Source: Deltaproteobacteria bacterium (GTDB taxonomy: Bacteria > Desulfobacterota > Syntrophia > Syntrophales > UBA5619). From it: DNA of 36,313 bases. Positions 7,720 to 15,842 of the stretch are shown here, piece after piece. The notes below the pieces were generated by a model. That model saw nothing but the letters and a program-made list of their open reading frames with translations. It did not search any database and was not told where the DNA came from. Numbering within the stretch: the first letter of the stretch is position 1; the number at the start of each line of letters is the position of its first letter. The DNA is taken from assembly GCA_021372415.1 (NCBI GenBank), contig JAJFUM010000190.1, positions 1 through 36,313 of the forward strand. The letters run 5' to 3'. The translations under genes and the position numbers were made by a program.

Positions 7720-7765
7720 TTGACAACCCTTTGGGGCTGTGTTTTCATACGCTACCCTTTAGGGG
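7720..7765 (+). promoter_or_regulatory. Predicted promoter of the aromatic operon with flanking CCCTTTRGGG repeats
   Basis: A consensus -35 box TTGACA sits at 7720-7725. The -10 box is weaker; TTCATA at 7744-7749 (18-base spacing) or the neighbouring CATACG are candidates. Two near-identical elements, ACCCTTTGGGG (7726-7736) and ACCCTTTAGGGG (7754-7765), lie 28 bases apart, one right after the -35 box and one after the -10 region. Each is a partial palindrome. A repressor bound there would cover the promoter. The transcript would begin around 7755 and include the leader peptide. Confidence 0.5.
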
Positions 7766-7788
7766 AAATTGAAGCAGTGGACAGGGCA

Positions 7789-7872
7789 ATGACACAGAAC
7801 AACTCCTTTAGCAGCTATTACTGGTTTTATTACTTTTATGCACCGGTCTGCCCGCTGCTTAGGAGGACGTAA
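7789..7872 (+). CDS. Aromatic amino acid operon leader peptide (attenuator peptide)
   Basis: This short gene encodes 27 residues: MTQNNSFSS, then an unbroken run of eight aromatic residues (Tyr10, Tyr11, Trp12, Phe13, Tyr14, Tyr15, Phe16, Tyr17), then APVCPLLRRT and TAA. In all, 9 of 27 residues are aromatic (5 Tyr, 3 Phe, 1 Trp). It lies just upstream of two rho-independent terminators and the DAHP synthase gene. Shortage of any charged aromatic tRNA would stall the ribosome in the run and allow readthrough, as known for the pheL, trpL and hisL attenuators. An exact ribosome site is not strong (GGACAGG six bases upstream of ATG is reasonable). Function is inferred from composition and position, both of which are very specific. 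Confidence 0.88.
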   Translation: MTQNNSFSSYYWFYYFYAPVCPLLRRT

Positions 7873-7913
7873 GGAACACCCTACAACGTAGTTAACTAAG
7901 CCATGGACAGACC
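7845..7913 (+). promoter_or_regulatory. Candidate antiterminator fold of the attenuator
   Basis: GGTCTG (7845-7850) can pair with CAGACC (7908-7913), and GCTTAG (7857-7862) with CTAAGC (7896-7901), giving a two-part stem with a 6x6 internal loop. It uses the 5' arm and loop of terminator 1, so the two folds exclude each other. A ribosome stalled at codons 10-13 leaves both 5' segments free. A ribosome at the stop codon (7870-7872) would cover them and release the terminator. Confidence 0.5.
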
Positions 7914-7935
7914 CGATGCTGACCATGGCTTTTTT
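7898..7935 (+). terminator. Attenuator terminator 1
   Basis: AAGCCATGG (7898-7906) pairs perfectly with CCATGGCTT (7923-7931) across a 16-base loop and runs straight into six T residues. It starts 25 bases after the leader stop codon. It is the expected rho-independent terminator of a translation-coupled attenuator. Confidence 0.8.
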
Positions 7936-7943
7936 GTTTCTTC

Positions 7944-7988
7944 AAGGGCCGTGGTGGCAGATGCGAATTCACCACGGCCTTTTTATTT
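7944..7988 (+). terminator. Attenuator terminator 2 (tandem)
   Basis: GGCCGTGGTG (7947-7956) pairs perfectly with CACCACGGCC (7970-7979), extendable by three pairs including one G-U, with a 13-base loop, followed by TTTTTATTT. It ends only about 15 bases before the aroF start, so it can also hide the ribosome site region. A second terminator placed after the first is unusual for a simple leader-peptide attenuator. Confidence 0.82.
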
Positions 7989-8003: not shown

Positions 8004-9029
8004 ATGATCATTTTGATGAAGAAAAACGTGACACAGACGCAGATCGACCAGGTGACGGAATGGATTACTTCGGTGGGATACAAGCCACACCTGTCGCAGG
8101 GAGTGGAGCGGACGCTGATCGGCGCCATCGGCGACGACCGGGGGAAGATCCACCTGAAGGCGGCGGCTTTCCTTCCCGGCGTGGAGAAGGTCGTCCCGAT
8201 CCTCAAGCCCTACAAGCTCGCCAGCCGCGAATTCAAGGAGTCGGACACGGTGATCGAGGTCGGCCATTGCCGGATCGGCGGGGGCGGCTTCACCGTCATC
8301 GCCGGTCCCTGCTCCATCGAAAGCGAAGAGCAGATGATGGAATCCGGTTACGTGGCCAAGAAGGCGGGGGCCCAGATCCTGCGCGGCGGCGCCTTCAAGC
8401 CGCGGACATCGCCCTACAGCTTCCAGGGGATGGAAGAGGAGGGGCTCCGGCTCCTCAAGAAGGTGGGGGAGAAGACGGGGATGCCTGTCGTGACCGAGGT
8501 GATGAACACCGTTGATGTCGATCTGGTCGAGGCCTACAGCGACATCCTCCAGATCGGGGCCCGCAACGTCCAGAACTTCGCCCTCCTGAAGAAGGTCGGC
8601 CACAGCAAGAAGCCCGTCCTGCTCAAGCGGGGTTTGATGACGACGATTGAGGAACTGCTTATGTCCGCCGAGTACATTCTCTCCGAAGGCAACGACCAGA
8701 TCATCCTCTGCGAACGGGGGATCCGCACCTTCGAGACGGCGACGCGAAACACCTTGGACATCAGCGCAGTTCCCGTCCTCAAGGAGCTGACCCATCTGCC
8801 GGTCATCATTGATCCGAGCCATGCCGCGGGCCACGCCAAATACGTCCTTCCCCTCACCCGGGCCGCTGTGGCCGTCGGCGCCGACGGCGTCATCGTCGAA
8901 GTCCACCCCGAGCCGGAAAAGGCCTTTTCGGACGGCCCCCAGTCGCTCCGTCCGGAACAGCTCTACCGGCTCATGGACGAGGTGGCCGTCCTGAAAAAGG
9001 CGATGGAGGAAATCGGAGGGCTCCCATGA
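8004..9029 (+). CDS. aroF: 3-deoxy-7-phosphoheptulonate (DAHP) synthase
   Basis: This 341-residue enzyme joins phosphoenolpyruvate and erythrose 4-phosphate, the first step of the shikimate pathway. Residues 1-70 form the ferredoxin-like/ACT-like regulatory domain found in the Thermotoga-type (I-beta) enzymes, and the TIM barrel follows from about 85. Visible motifs are AGPCSIES (from residue 100), GGAFKPRTSPYSFQG (Lys132 in KPR), LLKRGL, ERGIRTFET and DPSHAAGH with the metal-binding His. The N-terminal domain suggests allosteric control by an aromatic end product, as in the characterised Thermotoga enzyme. It is the first structural gene after the attenuator and has GAGGG six bases before ATG; it overlaps aroB by 4 bases. 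Confidence 0.96.
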   Translation: MIILMKKNVTQTQIDQVTEWITSVGYKPHLSQGVERTLIGAIGDDRGKIHLKAAAFLPGVEKVVPILKPYKLASREFKESDTVIEVGHCRIGGGGFTVIAGPCSIESEEQMMESGYVAKKAGAQILRGGAFKPRTSPYSFQGMEEEGLRLLKKVGEKTGMPVVTEVMNTVDVDLVEAYSDILQIGARNVQNFALLKKVGHSKKPVLLKRGLMTTIEELLMSAEYILSEGNDQIILCERGIRTFETATRNTLDISAVPVLKELTHLPVIIDPSHAAGHAKYVLPLTRAAVAVGADGVIVEVHPEPEKAFSDGPQSLRPEQLYRLMDEVAVLKKAMEEIGGLP

Positions 9030-10120
9030 AGACGATGAAGGTCCATATGGAGAACCGGACGAGCCGTTCCTACGAGATCCACATCGGCGAGGGGATCCTG
9101 GACCGCATGGCGATGATCCTGGCGAAGAACCGATGGGCCGGGCGGTACGTGATCGTCACGGACAGCCGGATTGACTCCCTCCACGGGGAACGCGTCCAGG
9201 CGACCCTGGAGAAGTGCGACCTTCCCTGCGAAAGGATCGTCGTGGAGCCAGGCGAGGCGGCCAAAGAGATTGGGACGGTCCTGACCGTCACGGAGCAGCT
9301 CACCGCACTGGGCGCCGACCGGCAGACGGCCCTGATCGCCCTGGGGGGAGGCGTGATCGGCGACCTGACAGGATTCGCGGCTTCGCTCTACATGCGCGGG
9401 ATCGGCGTGGTCCAGGTGCCGACGACGCTCCTGGCCCAGGTGGACAGCAGCATCGGCGGGAAGACCGCCGTGGACACGAAGGCCGGCAAGAACCTCCTGG
9501 GGAGCTTCCACCAACCCAAGGGGGTCTTCATCGACATCGCCTTTCTGCGGACCCTCCCGGACGAGACCTTCCGAAGCGGCCTCGCGGAGGTGATCAAGTA
9601 CGGGGCCATCGAGGCCCCGGGGCTCCTCGAAGAGATGGAGTCCGCCGCAGGGGCGGGCACCCTTCGGGAGACAGCATTCCTCGAGACGATCATCACCGCT
9701 TCCTGCAGGATCAAGAAGGGGATCGTGGAGCTCGACGAGAAGGACCTGGGGCTGCGGCGGATCTTGAATTTCGGCCATACGGTCGGCCACGCCGTGGAGG
9801 CGGCCTCGGATTACCGCCTCTCCCATGGTGAGGCGGTGGCGATCGGCATGGTCGCCGCGGCCGGTATCGCGGAGCAGATGCACCATCTCCCCGCGGAGGA
9901 CGCCGCCCGGATCTCGGCGGTCATCAGGGCCGTCGGCCTCCCTATTGGGATCCCGAAAGGCATGGATGCAGGAGAGATCCTCGCCAGGATCGCCATGGAC
10001 AAGAAGCGAGAGGGCCGGAAGGTCCCCTTCGTGCTGCTCAAGAAGCTGGGAGTCCCCTTTGTCAACGGCGGGATCCCGGAGGAGATCCTGAGAAAAACCC
10101 TGGAAGGAATGCGGACATGA
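9026..10120 (+). CDS. aroB: 3-dehydroquinate synthase
   Basis: This 364-residue enzyme converts DAHP to 3-dehydroquinate using NAD and a divalent metal. It shows GGGVIGDLTGFAASLYMRG (from residue 107), QVPTTLLAQVDSSIGGKTA, the metal-ligand Glu in SGLAEVIKYG, and metal-ligand His residues in NFGHTVGHAVE and LSHGEAVAIGM. Length and motif order are normal for AroB. The start codon overlaps the aroF stop as ATGA, and its own stop overlaps the pheA start in the same way, which implies translational coupling. A second in-frame ATG lies three codons later; the first is preferred for the overlap. Confidence 0.97.
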   Translation: MKTMKVHMENRTSRSYEIHIGEGILDRMAMILAKNRWAGRYVIVTDSRIDSLHGERVQATLEKCDLPCERIVVEPGEAAKEIGTVLTVTEQLTALGADRQTALIALGGGVIGDLTGFAASLYMRGIGVVQVPTTLLAQVDSSIGGKTAVDTKAGKNLLGSFHQPKGVFIDIAFLRTLPDETFRSGLAEVIKYGAIEAPGLLEEMESAAGAGTLRETAFLETIITASCRIKKGIVELDEKDLGLRRILNFGHTVGHAVEAASDYRLSHGEAVAIGMVAAAGIAEQMHHLPAEDAARISAVIRAVGLPIGIPKGMDAGEILARIAMDKKREGRKVPFVLLKKLGVPFVNGGIPEEILRKTLEGMRT

Positions 10121-11214
10121 AGGAAGAGAAGATCGAGAAACTCCGAGAAAAGATCGAACGGACAGACCGGGAGATCGTACGCCTCCTGGGCGAGCGGGCG
10201 GCCGTCTCGATCGAAATCGGCCGGGCAAAGCTCGGCGCCGGTCTGGCTGTCTACGACCCGGCACGGGAGGCCATGGTTTATCGGCAACTGGCCAGGATCA
10301 ACGGCGGGGCCCTGCCGGAGGCCTCCCTCCAGGCGATCTTCCGGGAAATCATCTCCGCCTCACGCGCCCTCCAGACGCCGCTTGAGGTCGCCTTCCTGGG
10401 GCCCGAGGCCTCCTTCAGCCACCAGGCGGCCCTGGCCCATTTCGGAAGCGGGATCGTCCCCCTCTCCAAGGCCACGATCCAGGACGTCTTCACCGATGCG
10501 GAGAAAGGGCCAAACAGCCGCTGGGGAATCGTCCCGGTCGAGAATTCCGCTGAAGGCTCGGTGAAGGCAACGCTGGACCGGCTCATCTCGACACCGCTGG
10601 CGATCCGGGCGGAGGTCTACCTCCGGATCCGCCAGTGCCTCCTGTCCTCTTGCAGCCGGATGGACGAGATCCGGCGGGTCTATTCCCACCCCCAGGCACT
10701 CGCCCAATGCCAGGGCTGGCTCAGGACCCACCTGCCCGGGATTCCCCTCGTCGAGGTGGAGAGCACCGCAGGGGCGGCCCGTCGCATCCAGGAAGACAAA
10801 ACGGGGGCCGCCGTGGGAAGCGCCCTGGCCGCGCAGGTCTACAACCTGGGCCTCCTGGCCGAGGGGATCGAGGACAATCCGGCGAACACGACCCGATTCA
10901 TCGTCATCGGGCCGAGGGCCGAACGCGACCACGGAGGGATAACCGGTCGCGACAAGACCTCGATCCTCTTCGGTACGCCCCACCTGCCAGGCGCCCTCCA
11001 CCGGGCCCTGGAACCCTTCGCCCAGGCGGAGATCAACCTGATGCGGATCGAGTCCTACCCGGCGCGGGAGCGGATGTGGGAATACCTTTTCTTCGCCGAT
11101 TTCGCGGGCCACACCGCCGACCCCAAGACCGAGCAATGCCTCGAGGCGCTCAAGGGCCGGACAGCCTACCTGAAGGTCCTGGGGTCTTACCCCCGGGGGG
11201 AGGAACTGCCATGA
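10117..11214 (+). CDS. pheA: Bifunctional chorismate mutase / prephenate dehydratase (P-protein)
   Basis: This 365-residue protein makes phenylpyruvate from chorismate. The N-terminal AroQ-type chorismate mutase (about 1-85) has LREKIERTDREIVRLLGERA. The dehydratase (about 88-270) has VAFLGPEASFSHQAA, WGIVPVENSAEGSV and the catalytic NTTRFIVIG. A C-terminal ACT domain (about 280-360) has KTSILFGTPHLPGALHRAL and RIESYPARERMWEYLFF, the phenylalanine-binding region (usual ESRP replaced by ESYP). Feedback inhibition by phenylalanine is expected from family knowledge. Both ends overlap the neighbours by 4 bases (ATGA). Confidence 0.96.
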   Translation: MKEEKIEKLREKIERTDREIVRLLGERAAVSIEIGRAKLGAGLAVYDPAREAMVYRQLARINGGALPEASLQAIFREIISASRALQTPLEVAFLGPEASFSHQAALAHFGSGIVPLSKATIQDVFTDAEKGPNSRWGIVPVENSAEGSVKATLDRLISTPLAIRAEVYLRIRQCLLSSCSRMDEIRRVYSHPQALAQCQGWLRTHLPGIPLVEVESTAGAARRIQEDKTGAAVGSALAAQVYNLGLLAEGIEDNPANTTRFIVIGPRAERDHGGITGRDKTSILFGTPHLPGALHRALEPFAQAEINLMRIESYPARERMWEYLFFADFAGHTADPKTEQCLEALKGRTAYLKVLGSYPRGEELP

Positions 11215-12623
11215 TCCACAACGCCGCAGCGAGGCAGGCAGTTCCGGAAATGCATGGGGAAATGGTTGAGATTAAACCGCTTGCACATCTGGACGCCGCG
11301 GTCCGGATGCCCGGATCGAAGAGCTACACGCAACGGGCCATGGTCCTGGCGGCCCTGGCTGAAGGGGAATCCCGCCTCCGGGATGCCCTGATCGCCGAGG
11401 ACACGGCACTCCTGGCCGAGGCGCTGGGTGCCCTCGGGGCCGGGGTCCGCCGGGATGGAAGGGACCTGCTGGTCACTGGGACCGCGGGGAAGATCGGCCG
11501 GCCAGTGCGGGCCATCCAGCTTGGCAACAACGGAACGGCGATGCGTCTCCTGGCCGGCGTGGCCTCTCTGGCCCAAGGGGCCATCGACCTGACCGGGGGA
11601 AAACGCCTGTGCGAGCGGCCGATGAAACCTCTCCTGGATGCCCTGAGGGATCTGGGGGTGTCCTCGTGGACGGAAGACGGCCTCGGCTACCCGCCGGTGA
11701 GGATCCTGGGCGGCGGGCTCAAGGGCGGGAGGGCGGTCCTCCGCAACATCGGGAGCAGCCAATACATTTCGGCGCTCCTGATCGCAGCCCCCTTCGCCGC
11801 CTCCGACGTGACTCTGGTCCTGGAAGGCCAGATCCCCTCTCTGCCCTACGTGGCCCTCACCATCGAGACGATGGGGGCGTTCGGCGTCAGGGTCCTCGAG
11901 GAGGGACCGGCCCGCTACGTCGTCCCCTGCGGCCAGCGGTACATGGGACGGGAATATCGGATCGAGGGCGACGCCTCCAGCGCCTCCTACTTTTTCGCCG
12001 CGGCCACGCTCCTGGCGGGCCGGATCCGGGTGGAGAACATCGACGCATCGACCCGGCAGGGGGACATCCGCTTTCTGGAGATCCTCGAGCGGCTCGGTGC
12101 CCGGATCGAGAGGGGAAAGGACCATGTCACCGTGGCAGGGGGCCGGATGCCCAGCGGGGAGCTGACCTTCGACATGGGCGGCATGCCCGACATGGTGCCG
12201 ACGCTGGCGGTCCTGGCCGCCCTGCGGCCCGGGAAGACCTCCATCCGCAACGTCGCCCACCTGCGTCTGAAGGAGAGCGACCGGCTGGCCGTCCTGGCCA
12301 GGGAGCTGGGGAAGACCGGGATTGAGGCCCGGGAGCTGGCCGATGGCCTGACCATCACGGGGGGAAGACCGCAGGGAGCCCCGATCGAGACCTACAACGA
12401 TCACCGGATCGCCATGGCTTTCGCCGTCCTGGGGCTGGCCGTCCCGGGAATGGCCATCGCCGGTGAAGGATGCGTGGGCAAATCCTTCCCCGGATTCTGG
12501 GAAACCTTCAAAGGGCTCTACGGAAACGGTTCCTCCCCCGATCGGGGCGGGAGTCTGCAGACGAACGAGAATATTCCCCCGGCCGGAGGCCGGAGAGAAT
12601 CCATCAAAGAAAGGGTTGCATGA
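11211..12623 (+). CDS. aroA: 3-phosphoshikimate 1-carboxyvinyltransferase (EPSP synthase)
   Basis: This 470-residue enzyme adds enolpyruvate from PEP to shikimate 3-phosphate. It shows PGSKSYTQRAMVLAALAEG (Lys37, Ser38, Arg42), LGNNGTAMRLLAGVASL, SSQYISALLIAAPFA, EGDASSASYFFAAATLL, RLKESDRLAVLARELGKTG and YNDHRIAMAFAVLGL, the complete set for the family. The start is the ATG overlapping the pheA stop, with GGGGGAGGAA before it. The first ~20 residues and the last ~30 are extra relative to a minimal enzyme; the tail is Gly/Pro-rich and probably disordered. The frame is open far upstream inside pheA, but that part is antisense-like noise. Confidence 0.96.
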   Translation: MIHNAAARQAVPEMHGEMVEIKPLAHLDAAVRMPGSKSYTQRAMVLAALAEGESRLRDALIAEDTALLAEALGALGAGVRRDGRDLLVTGTAGKIGRPVRAIQLGNNGTAMRLLAGVASLAQGAIDLTGGKRLCERPMKPLLDALRDLGVSSWTEDGLGYPPVRILGGGLKGGRAVLRNIGSSQYISALLIAAPFAASDVTLVLEGQIPSLPYVALTIETMGAFGVRVLEEGPARYVVPCGQRYMGREYRIEGDASSASYFFAAATLLAGRIRVENIDASTRQGDIRFLEILERLGARIERGKDHVTVAGGRMPSGELTFDMGGMPDMVPTLAVLAALRPGKTSIRNVAHLRLKESDRLAVLARELGKTGIEARELADGLTITGGRPQGAPIETYNDHRIAMAFAVLGLAVPGMAIAGEGCVGKSFPGFWETFKGLYGNGSSPDRGGSLQTNENIPPAGGRRESIKERVA

Positions 12624-12624
12624 A

Positions 12625-13386
12625 ATGAACATCATCTTCACGGGATACCGCTGTACGGGAAAGACGTCGGCCGGCCGGAGGCTGGCCCAGCTTCTGGGTT
12701 GCGCCTTTTACGACGCGGACGACGTGATCATCGCCCTGACGGGCCGCTCGATCGAGCAGATCGTGGCCGAGAAGGGCTGGCCGGCCTTCCGGGAGGTGGA
12801 GCGGGCGGTCATCCTGGAACTCTCCGCAAAGGACAACTGCGTCATCGCCCCCGGGGGCGGGGCCGTCCTCGACGAGCGGAACGTCCAGGCCCTGAAGAAA
12901 AACGGCCTTTTCATCTGGCTTGTGGCCGATACGGCGACGATCGTGGCCCGGCTCCGGAAGGACCAGGCCGGCGGGGCGCCGCGTCCCTCGCTCTCGGGGA
13001 AGCCCGTCGAAATCGAGGTACAGGAAATCCTGGCCCAAAGAGAGCCGATCTACCGGCGTATTGCAGACCTGAGCGTCGATACCACCACCCGGACGGTCGA
13101 GGAGGTCGTCGAGACCATCGCCCGGGAGCTGAAAAAGGAGGAGACCGGCCTCACGCTCCATCCCTCCCTGGTCGGTCGGCTCGTCGAGAGGGAAGTGCAG
13201 GCTATGCTGGCCCAGCGGGAACCGATCTACCGGCGCATCGCGGATCTGATCGCCGAGACCTCCGCTGAATCGGTCGAGGAGATCGCCGCCATGATCGTCC
13301 GGAGGCTGGGACCGGACCAGGCGGACCGGGTGGCGGCCGCGATCCGCGGCGGCCTCAGGAAAGGTCCGCGCCAAAGGGAGGGATAG
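12625..13386 (+). CDS. aroK: Shikimate kinase with duplicated C-terminal segment
   Basis: The enzyme phosphorylates shikimate with ATP. The Walker A motif is [11 protein letters not shown] (Lys13), followed by [19 protein letters not shown] and APGGGAVLD. At 253 residues it is about 80 longer than a usual AroK (near 170). The excess is a tandem copy: residues 120-178 and 179-237 align without gaps, both carrying PSL..G...[18 protein letters not shown], the lid and shikimate-binding Arg region with the last helix. A short Arg/Gly-rich tail follows. It begins one base after aroA ends and stops two bases before aroC. The first copy alone would complete a normal kinase. Confidence 0.93.
12982..13335 (+). 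repeat. Tandem direct repeat inside aroK (2 x 177 bases)
   Basis: Units 12982-13158 and 13159-13335 encode 59 residues each. In the first 30 residues 23 are identical between copies, while the last half has diverged, and the DNA has drifted at many third positions. This points to an old in-frame duplication kept open rather than an assembly error. Confidence 0.85.
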
Positions 13387-13388
13387 CC

Positions 13389-14456
13389 ATGTCCGGAAAC
13401 ACGATCGGCACGCTCTTCCAGGTCACGACCTGGGGGGAGTCCCACGGCCCGGCAATCGGCGCGGTCATCGACGGTTGCCCGCCCCGGGTCGAGATCTCCG
13501 AGGCGGACATCCAGGCCGATCTCGACAGGCGCAGGCCCGGGTCCCTTGCCTCGGCTAGCCCGCGCCGGGAGGAGGACCGCGTCGAGATCCTCTCCGGCCT
13601 CTTCGAGGGGAAGACCACGGGGACCCCGATCTCGCTGATGATCCGCAACCGCGACGCCGCCAGCGGGGCCTACGAGGGACTCCGGGGGATCTTTCGGCCC
13701 GGCCACGGGGATATCACTTACCAGTCCAAATACGGGATCCGTGACCACCGGGGCGGTGGCCGCGCCTCGGGCCGGGAAACCGCCGGCCGTGTTGCCGCCG
13801 GCGCCGTCGCCCGCAAGGTGATCGGCTCCGTAGGGATCGGGGTGGCGGCCTGCACCAGGGAGTTGGACGGCATCGCCGCCTCGGGTTTCGATGCAGCCGC
13901 GGCGGTGTCAAGCCCACTTCGCTGCCCAGATCCGGCGGCAGAGGCGCGGATGATCGAACGGCTTGCAGAGGCGCGCACGGCCGGCGACACGGTGGGCGGG
14001 ATCGTTGAGATCGTTGTGCGGGGCTGTCCGGCAGGCCTCGGTGAGCCGGTCTTTGGGAAGATGGACGCGGATCTGGCCCATGCCCTCATGGGAATCGGGA
14101 CCGTCAAGGGCGTGGAGATCGGCGCGGGATTCGCCGCGGCAAGGATGCGCGGCTCGGCCTGCAACGACCCCATCGCCCCGGAGGGGTTCCGGACGAACCA
14201 TGCCGGTGGAATCCTCGCCGGGATCACCAACGGCGACCAGATCGTCCTCCGCGTCGCCTGCAAGCCGATCCCCTCCATCGCCCTAGACCAGGAAACGATC
14301 GACGAGGCGGGGAAATCCGTCAGCATGAGGATAGCGGGGAGGCACGACGTCTGCGTCATCCCCCGGATCATCCCGGTCTGCGAGGCAATGGTCGCCATCG
14401 TGCTGGCGGACCACCTGATGCGGCAGCGGGCGATCGAGCGGCCCTCGAACCGATGA
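13389..14456 (+). CDS. aroC: Chorismate synthase
   Basis: This 355-residue enzyme removes phosphate from EPSP to make chorismate and needs reduced FMN. The N terminus [18 protein letters not shown] with the catalytic His, then [53 protein letters not shown], and the C-terminal [17 protein letters not shown] segment are all characteristic. Length is normal for the bacterial monofunctional enzyme, which relies on an external source of reduced flavin. It lies two bases after aroK. The stop overlaps an alternative tyrA start as ATGA. Confidence 0.97.
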
Positions 14457-14497
14457 CCGGGGCCATTGGAGGAATCGTGGAACGAGAAGGAGGCCGG

Positions 14498-15301
14498 ATG
14501 AACAACGTCGAGATCGGGATCATCGGCGGGACAGGGGGGATCGGCCGGTGGTTCGCCGATCACTTCCAGAAAGAGGGCTACGGGGTCCATTGCACGGGCC
14601 GGCGGTCGGGAATGACGATTCCCGAAATCGCGGCGCGCTGCCGCGTCGTCATCGTCTCCGTCCCCATTGCCGCGACAATGGAAGTCATCGACCGGGTGGG
14701 GCCGCTCCTCCCCGAGGACTCCCTCCTGATGGACTTCACGTCGCTCAAGGAAGCTTCCGTCCGCCGGATGCTGAACGCCACCCGAGCGGAGGTGGTCGGC
14801 TGCCACCCCCTCTTCGGGCCGGACTGCCCGTCCCTGGCTGGACAGAACGTCATCCTCTGCCCGGCCAGGGGGGAACGATGGCTCCGCTGGACGGAAAGGC
14901 TGCTGGTCAAGGCGGGGGCCCGCGTCACCCTGGCCAGCCCGCAGACGCACGACCGGATGATGGCGCTGGTCCAGGGATTGACCCACCTGGAGACGGTTCT
15001 GATGGCGCTCACCCTCCGGGAGTCCGGCGAGTCCCCCTCGTCGCTGGAGGCCTTTTCCACACCCGTTTTCAGGACGAGGCAGGCGATCGCCGGGAAGGTC
15101 CTCGCCCATCCCGCCCTCTATGCCGGGCTCATCGCGGAGAATCGCCAAATGGCCGCGATCCTGGATATCTACGAAGAGCAACTCACCCGTCTCAGGAAAC
15201 GGATCCTGGAGGGCGATGCAGCGGGTTTGGCCGCCCTTCTCGAGGAATCGGGTCCCCTCCCCGATACACCGGAACACGCTGAAAAAGGCAATGCACCATA
15301 G
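14498..15301 (+). CDS. tyrA: Prephenate dehydrogenase
   Basis: This 267-residue enzyme oxidises prephenate to 4-hydroxyphenylpyruvate with NAD(P). The N terminus MNNVEIGIIGGTGGIGRWF is the dinucleotide-binding loop, VIVSVPIAATMEVI and MDFTSLKEASV follow, GCHPLFGPD holds the conserved His103, and QGLTHLETVLMALTL starts the helical dimerisation domain. No chorismate mutase or ACT domain is attached, so feedback control must act elsewhere. The start chosen has AAGGAGG four bases ahead and puts the Gly loop at the N terminus; an ATG at 14453, overlapping the aroC stop, would add 15 residues and is the alternative. It is the last gene of the operon. Confidence 0.94.
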   Translation: MNNVEIGIIGGTGGIGRWFADHFQKEGYGVHCTGRRSGMTIPEIAARCRVVIVSVPIAATMEVIDRVGPLLPEDSLLMDFTSLKEASVRRMLNATRAEVVGCHPLFGPDCPSLAGQNVILCPARGERWLRWTERLLVKAGARVTLASPQTHDRMMALVQGLTHLETVLMALTLRESGESPSSLEAFSTPVFRTRQAIAGKVLAHPALYAGLIAENRQMAAILDIYEEQLTRLRKRILEGDAAGLAALLEESGPLPDTPEHAEKGNAP

Positions 15302-15370: not shown

Positions 15371-15826
15371 TCAGGTCCCGTTCAGGAGCTCCACGGCCGC
15401 CCGAAGCCCCAGGAGATAGCTCTGAAGGCCGAAGCCGGCGATCTGGGCCTTGGCCAGGGGCGCGACCACCGAGTAGTGGCGGAACTCCTCCCGGGCGTGG
15501 ATGTTGGACATGTGGACCTCTATGATGGGGACCTCCAAGATCGCCAGGGCATCCCTGAGGGCGATGCTGTAATGGGTCCAGGCGCCGGCGTTGATGAGGA
15601 CCGCGTCCACATTCTCGAGATGGGCCTGGTGGATCCGCTCGCAGATCGCGCCTTCGAAGTTCGTCTGAAAGGTCTCGACCGTGCAGCCCAGCTCCTTCCC
15701 CAGGTCCTTCAGCCGGCCATTGATCTCGTCGAGGGTGACCGTCCCGTACTGGGCCGGGTCCCTCTTGCCGAACATGTTCAGATTGACACCGTGCAAAACC
15801 AGGATCCTCTTCTTGGTCTTCTTCAT
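15371..15826 (-). CDS. aroQ: 3-dehydroquinate dehydratase, type II
   Basis: This 151-residue enzyme dehydrates 3-dehydroquinate to 3-dehydroshikimate. It shows ILVLHGVNLNMFGKRDPAQYG with the catalytic Tyr27, QTNFEGAICERIHQA, NAGAWTHYSIALRDAL and EVHMSNIHAREEFRHYS, the full type II set. Instead of sitting in the convergent aromatic operon it lies 16 bases after tctA, as the last gene of the leftward transport cluster. It may serve biosynthesis, filling the step absent from the operon, or catabolism of quinate-like compounds, where the same enzyme type is also used. The open frame continues upstream into tctA, but similarity begins at this ATG. Confidence 0.95.
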   Translation of the reverse strand: MKKTKKRILVLHGVNLNMFGKRDPAQYGTVTLDEINGRLKDLGKELGCTVETFQTNFEGAICERIHQAHLENVDAVLINAGAWTHYSIALRDALAILEVPIIEVHMSNIHAREEFRHYSVVAPLAKAQIAGFGLQSYLLGLRAAVELLNGT

Positions 15827-15842
15827 GATTTCTTTACCCCGT

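Follow-up and report, generated by a model that had tools for sequence, protein, structure and literature searches.

Known attenuators and the aromatic leader

The his attenuator of Salmonella and E. coli is described by a scheme of six segments, A-F, which form two mutually exclusive sets of helices; its leader carries His codons, and its terminator is the last hairpin only. The enteric trpL, pheL and pheM leaders likewise have an ORF with regulatory codons, follow a 1:2, 2:3, 3:4 pairing logic and precede genes of aromatic metabolism, but trpL and pheL respond to one amino acid and pheM to Phe plus Tyr, each has one terminator, and they control a branch or a synthetase. One leader can serve several end products, as in the multivalent thrL (Thr and Ile) and ilvL (Ile, Val and Leu), which belong to branched-chain and Thr synthesis and have a single terminator. 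In Corynebacterium glutamicum a leader peptide gene (aroR) lies before the DAHP synthase gene aroF and is described as Phe-dependent. Elf and Ehrenberg have argued that the extra hairpin before the his terminator lowers basal read-through (PMC1183508), and two tandem terminators occur in a single leader in the rimP-leader of some Gammaproteobacteria, for which neither a leader peptide nor sensing of an amino acid is described (PMC2965389). In a survey of RNA regulons the amino acid attenuators taken from Rfam numbered only four, and their origin was suggested to be gamma-proteobacterial, with few transfers (PMC3766115).

The locus described here lies in a window of 36,313 nt, the whole stretch of DNA that was analysed, from a MAG of the order Syntrophales in the phylum Desulfobacterota. 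Many of the genomes compared with it are also MAGs, and the evidence throughout is comparative and thermodynamic. As in trp/his-type attenuation there is a short ORF with end-product codons, a set of mutually exclusive helices and an intrinsic terminator before aroF, in this case two of them. From the sequence and from folding models we consider it highly probable that the leader is a ribosome-mediated attenuator, which would sense charged Phe, Tyr and Trp tRNA jointly and govern the whole aromatic operon. Its predicted class is a his-like variant of ribosome-mediated attenuation in which two terminators are coupled and the sensors can be exchanged. Six segments are again present, here forming five consecutive helices; the codons are mixed aromatic ones in place of His, and the middle hairpin (3:4) has a U-tract too, such that by analogy the lowering of basal read-through would fall to a true terminator. 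Compared with trpL, pheL and pheM, the leader precedes the common pathway and two branches, has codons for three aromatics and has two terminators. It resembles the rimP-leader in its tandem terminators, and the C. glutamicum aroR leader is unrelated in sequence and phylum.

An earlier note on this DNA had proposed that a pan-aromatic attenuator for a whole shikimate operon would be a distinct design. The pan-aromatic run before a whole operon stands, but multivalence is not new in principle, given thrL and ilvL. The more unusual features are the coupled pair of terminators and the reuse of the scaffold with other sensor codons, both absent from that note. Within the literature compared, which leaves the comparative study of Lopatovskaya et al. 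2010 (cited in PMC4833913) outside, no earlier description of the element was found.

No trp, his, leu, thr or phe leader family of Rfam matches the leader, either at the gathering score or at E values up to 1, and the sole Rfam match (E 0.5) is a chance match to an unrelated sRNA. These searches bear on the idea that the RNA is a T-box, a riboswitch or a protein-bound leader in which the ORF is incidental. T-boxes occur in Geobacter (PMC3766115), and aromatic genes could be among their targets, yet the T-box covariance model does not match the leader, nothing in Rfam does so at the gathering score, and outside the helices no feature is better conserved than the aromatic run of the ORF; we regard this explanation as improbable in the extreme.

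The leader gene and its operon

Translation of the forward strand from ATG 7789 to TAA 7872 (27 codons) gives MTQNNSFSSYYWFYYFYAPVCPLLRRT, in which the sensor run of eight consecutive aromatic codons, YYWFYYFY, occupies positions 7816-7839. A run of this length occurs only once when the window is read in all six frames, the next longest having four codons; given the codon content of those frames, about 1e-5 such runs would be expected by chance, an estimate that refers to the window and not to the whole genome. The start is probably not this ATG but the in-frame GTG at 7777, because AGGGGA lies 10 nt before it and relatives start there with ATGGACAGA or ATGGGCAGA (MDR or MGR starts). The leader peptide gene would then extend over 7777-7872 (31 codons, MDRAMTQNN...; MDRAMTQNNSFSSYYWFYYFYAPVCPLLRRT), with AGGGGA at 7761-7766 as its probable Shine-Dalgarno sequence. 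A probable sigma-70 promoter is found at 7720-7748 on the same strand, with TTGACA at 7720-7725, a 17-nt spacer and TTTCAT at 7743-7748, and almost every one of the 61 aligned loci has a TTGACA-type -35 element about 113-142 nt 5' of segment 2 (see below). A generic promoter/terminator consensus scan of the window missed the leader promoter and both leader terminators, because the stems and loops are outside the limits of the scanner.

Pfam annotation of the DNA 3' of the leader reveals a seven-gene operon, aroF-aroB-pheA-aroA-aroK-aroC-tyrA, all transcribed rightwards (+). The genes code for DAHP synthase with an FXD domain (aroF, 8004-9029; DAHP_synth_1 and DAHP_snth_FXD), 3-dehydroquinate synthase (aroB, 9026-10120), a chorismate mutase - prephenate dehydratase - ACT protein (pheA, 10117-11214), EPSP synthase (aroA, 11214-12623), shikimate kinase (aroK, 12616-13386), chorismate synthase (aroC, 13389-14456) and prephenate dehydrogenase (tyrA, 14453-15301). 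The annotation bears out the proposal that a whole shikimate operon together with the Phe and Tyr branches lies behind the leader. The C-terminal part of AroK (12616-13386) is nearly repeated, with one 14-residue stretch present twice, and the opposite strand carries a type II dehydroquinase gene, aroQ, just 3' of the operon (15374-15829, -). No TrpR was found in the genome, and a search for TyrR gave one HTH_50 protein above the cut-off, a possible candidate.

Conservation of the aromatic run

A total of 110 loci with aroF relatives was gathered, and 61 Syntrophales aroF loci were aligned. Where the upstream DNA is intact, a short ORF with five to eight aromatics in eight codons is present at nearly every Syntrophales aroF locus, typically about 200-280 nt 5' of aroF; six aroF loci are without an aromatic leader ORF. 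Phe, Tyr and Trp are all present in 58 of the 61 leaders. Leaders that have no Trp are few (L019, L051 and L073, and also L031). Across the aligned loci F, Y and W interchange at each position of the run and the flanking codons drift. Conservation of the run against drifting flanks was the check that the earlier note had suggested, and the leader passes it in close as well as distant relatives, with conservation being that of the residue class. The aromatic fraction is about 0.9 at codons -4, -6, -7 and -9 before segment 2 (0.92 at -6 and -7), falls to 0.31 at codon -12, is at most 0.07 from -14 upstream and is about 0.02 beyond -15; most often the final aromatic codon of the 61 loci lies 8 or 11 nt 5' of segment 2. 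L152 and L153 (on the same contigs as L045 and L044) are near-identical aroF copies in one MAG, with a degenerate leader (NRYRFYCF) and an intact scaffold.

Free exchange of F, Y and W at each position is a prediction of codon sensing by class and not of an arrest peptide. In a nascent-peptide arrest leader of the TnaC/SecM type it would be the VCPLLRR tail, and not codon supply, that stalls the ribosome, and this tail is indeed well conserved as protein among the leaders of relatives. In L014, in L026 and in L104, a Desulfuromonadales locus, however, the underlying GGTCTGCC falls in other reading frames, and because it is kept there the alignments argue that the tail is conserved as RNA. The paralogues, moreover, carry WWWW, FFFF, YYYY or Leu/Val runs that fit their own genes. 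An arrest leader would be recognised by a conserved peptide of defined residues, whereas here the residues of the run exchange and the tail changes frame, and we consider stalling by the tail very improbable. The ORF is conserved and looks translated, as would be expected of a functional aromatic-rich microprotein, but residue order and the N-terminus drift, the length varies, and homologous positions hold WWWW or FFFF according to the downstream gene; there is thus very little likelihood that the peptide itself is the product. We return to joint sensing of the three aromatic amino acids through their codons as the preferred reading.

Six RNA segments and five alternative helices

Comparison of the loci indicates that the leader RNA is a six-segment domino, in which the alternative helices are 1:2, 2:3, 3:4 (terminator 1), 4:5 and 5:6 (terminator 2). 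The segments were picked out by eye in the 61-locus alignment, and all are on the forward strand. Segment 1 (GCAGTGGACAGGGCA, 7774-7788) overlaps the probable start codon and pairs with segment 2 (GGTCTGCCCGCTGCTTAG, 7845-7862), which is within the leader ORF and can pair with segment 3 (CTAAGCCATGGACAGACC, 7896-7913) instead; the window duplexes have energies of -18.8 kcal/mol (1:2) and -19.6 kcal/mol (2:3). Segment 4 (TGCTGACCATGGCTTTT, 7917-7933) pairs either with segment 3 or with segment 5 (AAGGGCCGTGGTGGCA, 7944-7959), the latter pairing (4:5, -20.9 kcal/mol) being a second antiterminator. Segments 3 and 5 are supported by covariation, the swap test described below and folding. Terminator 1 (7898-7936) comprises helix 3:4, supported by covariation, and a U-tract that is present in the window and nearly all relatives; terminator 2 (7944-7984) comprises helix 5:6, with segment 6 at 7970-7979 and a U-tract at 7980-7984. 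With aroF starting at 8004, the translation and these positions confirm the arrangement first noted for this DNA, of a leader with eight aromatic codons, terminators and then the DAHP synthase gene.

For every segment pair a swap test was made, in which the duplex energy of the native partners is compared with that of partners exchanged between loci. In the 61 loci all five consecutive pairs stand out, with z of -6.7 (1:2), -7.1 (2:3), -7.9 (3:4), -6.7 (4:5) and -13.9 (5:6) and with the 1:2 controls at about 0, while the ten non-consecutive pairs (1:3-1:6, 2:4, 2:5, 2:6, 3:5, 3:6, 4:6) show no co-evolution, |z| being at most 1.0. Every pair is drawn from the same loci, and the contrast therefore cannot be due to shared ancestry alone. 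A phylum-wide set of 74 non-redundant hits, mostly outside the order and with no overlap with the first 61 loci, gives -9.1 for 2:3, -15.9 for 3:4, -5.6 for 4:5 and -16.5 for 5:6, the others being at most 2.6 in size. Changes on both sides are seen in 7 of the 12 pairs of helix 3:4 (30 cells, against 7.0 when shuffled) and in 7 of the 10 pairs of helix 5:6. Helices 2:3 and 4:5 are paired in 94% and 93.9% of cells respectively, with few double changes per pair, because one segment must serve two helices. On average the 2:3, 3:4, 4:5 and 5:6 duplexes differ little in energy (-22.1, -23.0, -21.8 and -22.0 kcal/mol), which is what a switch needs.

The 4:5 helix is also where a simpler scheme could apply, namely a standard attenuator of four segments (1:2, 2:3, 3:4) with a constitutive back-up terminator behind it, 4:5 being a by-product of a shared CCATGG palindrome. 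Both terminators contain this palindrome, which makes much of the 4:5 complementarity automatic, and the double changes in 4:5, counted by pairs, are not above those in shuffles. The pair 3:6, however, shares the palindrome without co-evolving (z 0.6 against -6.7 for 4:5 at the level of the order, and -2.5 against -5.6 phylum-wide), the complementarity of segment 5 to segment 4 extends past the terminator-2 stem, and a constitutive second terminator would defeat induction. We think the back-up scheme unlikely and favor a pair of coupled terminators.

Folding and proposed mechanism

When segment 2 is masked, terminators 3:4 and 5:6 both fold in 61/61 loci and 4:5 is seen in just 6/61. With segment 2 free and the RNA extending up to segment 5, the MFE structure has 2:3 in 52/61 and 4:5 in 48/61 loci; for the RNA up to terminator 1 alone it has 2:3 in 26/61 and 3:4 in 33/61. 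The window RNA shows the same folding switch as its relatives. Since 4:5 is common with segment 2 free and rare with it masked, the second terminator appears to be slaved to the first, and in these models helix 4:5 both depends on 2:3 and reinforces it. The equilibrium structure of the full-length window RNA carries both terminators, and as it prefers them the decision must be kinetic, that is co-transcriptional, as in other attenuators.

In the mechanism we infer, a shortage of any one of Phe, Tyr or Trp would cause the ribosome to stall in the aromatic run. If about 12 nt of mRNA are assumed to be covered 3' of the A site, the spacing from the run to segment 2 means that a ribosome on most of the run would leave segment 2 free. 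The stalled ribosome would keep segment 1 off segment 2, such that 2:3 could pair and terminator 1 (3:4) would be blocked; segment 4, now freed, would pair with segment 5, terminator 2 (5:6) would be blocked in turn, and the polymerase would enter aroF. With all three amino acids plentiful the ribosome would cross segment 2, 1:2 could re-form behind it and 3:4 would terminate, and any polymerase leaking past would meet 5:6, since segment 4 would be locked up. The second switch being slaved to the first, the two terminators would act as one tight gate. Stalling, timing and read-through are predicted steps in this scheme; read-through would be under the control of all three amino acids, and the model predicts that a shortage of each alone is sufficient.

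Segment 2 is inside the ORF and would be only partly masked by a ribosome that halts on the stop codon. As such, its protection after translation should depend on ribosome passage and on re-forming of 1:2, a helix that includes the start codon. Dependence on a re-formed 1:2 also predicts termination when the leader is untranslated. More generally, the coupled terminators suggest a route to low attenuator leak without a repressor.

A probable scaffold family across the phylum

The covariance model R1 spans segment 2 to terminator 2 and leaves out the leader codons that lie upstream of segment 2. This model matches 149 of the 155 genomes of the order and 174 of 395 genomes sampled across the phylum, about 158 of these outside the order; its E-values are rough, and reverse-strand mirror hits were left out of the tests. 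At least four aromatic codons are present in the 13 codons upstream of 76 of 86 scaffold hits, as against 6.7% of random positions, and most of the hits with fewer are Trp-only or Leu leaders. One candidate member in the genome of the window (G000:C257, L168; E 0.19) was judged to match by chance, and no scaffold match is present in the genomes of five distant aroF hits, which bear the labels Nitrospirae, Nitrospinota or Tectomicrobia.

The upstream codon runs (mixed aromatic, Trp, Phe, Tyr, Leu and Leu/Val) fit the downstream genes, whose assignments beyond Pfam families rest on sequence resemblance. Mixed aromatic leaders lie 5' of several kinds of DAHP synthase (L170, L191, L195) and also 5' of a DeoC-type ADH synthase adjoining a DHQ synthase II-like gene (L185, L186, L188), where the same sensor would appear to serve a non-homologous first enzyme. 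Trp runs are found 5' of trpE (L112, L218, L242), a trpB-like gene (L217, L239), trpD (L244, L251) and some aroF genes too (L213, L228, L236), and Leu leaders 5' of a leuA-like gene (L233, L253). Two such copies are in the same genome as the window. The trpE leader MHKQTSIQNWWWWQNRREGSVHC (WWWW) has the same double-terminator scaffold (L112, reverse complement at about 1226-1400; G000:C396:2695-2810, -), and an acetolactate synthase-like ilvB gene is preceded by the leader SSLLLVLGVVVLVRT (LLLVLGVVVLV) with tandem terminators (L165, 267-384; G000:C311:18116-18233), apparently a branched-chain (Leu/Val) version, with a weak scaffold match (E 7e-4).

Taken together, these loci probably represent a previously undescribed, phylum-wide family of modular attenuators in the Desulfobacterota, with one six-segment scaffold, two slaved terminators and interchangeable sensors (all-aromatic, Trp, Phe, Tyr, Leu or Leu/Val), the all-aromatic form of which would guard entry to the pathway whichever first enzyme is used, either of two DAHP synthase kinds or a DeoC-type ADH synthase. 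That a distinct scaffold occurs across a different phylum, in a large fraction of the sampled genomes, is to be set against the proposed gamma-proteobacterial origin of attenuators. Where no TrpR is found, transcription of the aromatic synthesis genes may be controlled chiefly by this scaffold, and the exchange of sensors shows how evolution can re-target a leader.

Several further loci were noted. DeoC-type ADH synthase genes with a mixed aromatic leader occur at L185, L186, L188, L193, L194, L196, L214 and L219, several with the DHQ synthase II-like gene nearby. At L157 (G120:C62) the scaffold lies 5' of an AroH-type chorismate mutase-like gene and the leader seems to have decayed (FCCFWDSYCF). 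In one genus the gene for a Phenol_MetA_deg outer-membrane family protein is preceded by leaders with a Trp run, WWW in L156 and WWWW in the others (L149, L150, L154, L155, L159), and Phe-run leaders precede AMP-ligases, some of them phenylacetate-CoA ligase-like, and a class I/II aminotransferase (L166, L224, L234, L241, L225, L255). Operons of Liv-type periplasmic binding proteins have Phe-only (L158, L161-L164, L167, L254) and Tyr-rich leaders (L208, L209, L230, L232, L235, L245-L247), which predict Phe and Tyr uptake systems; sensor codons alone would predict the substrates of unassigned transporters.
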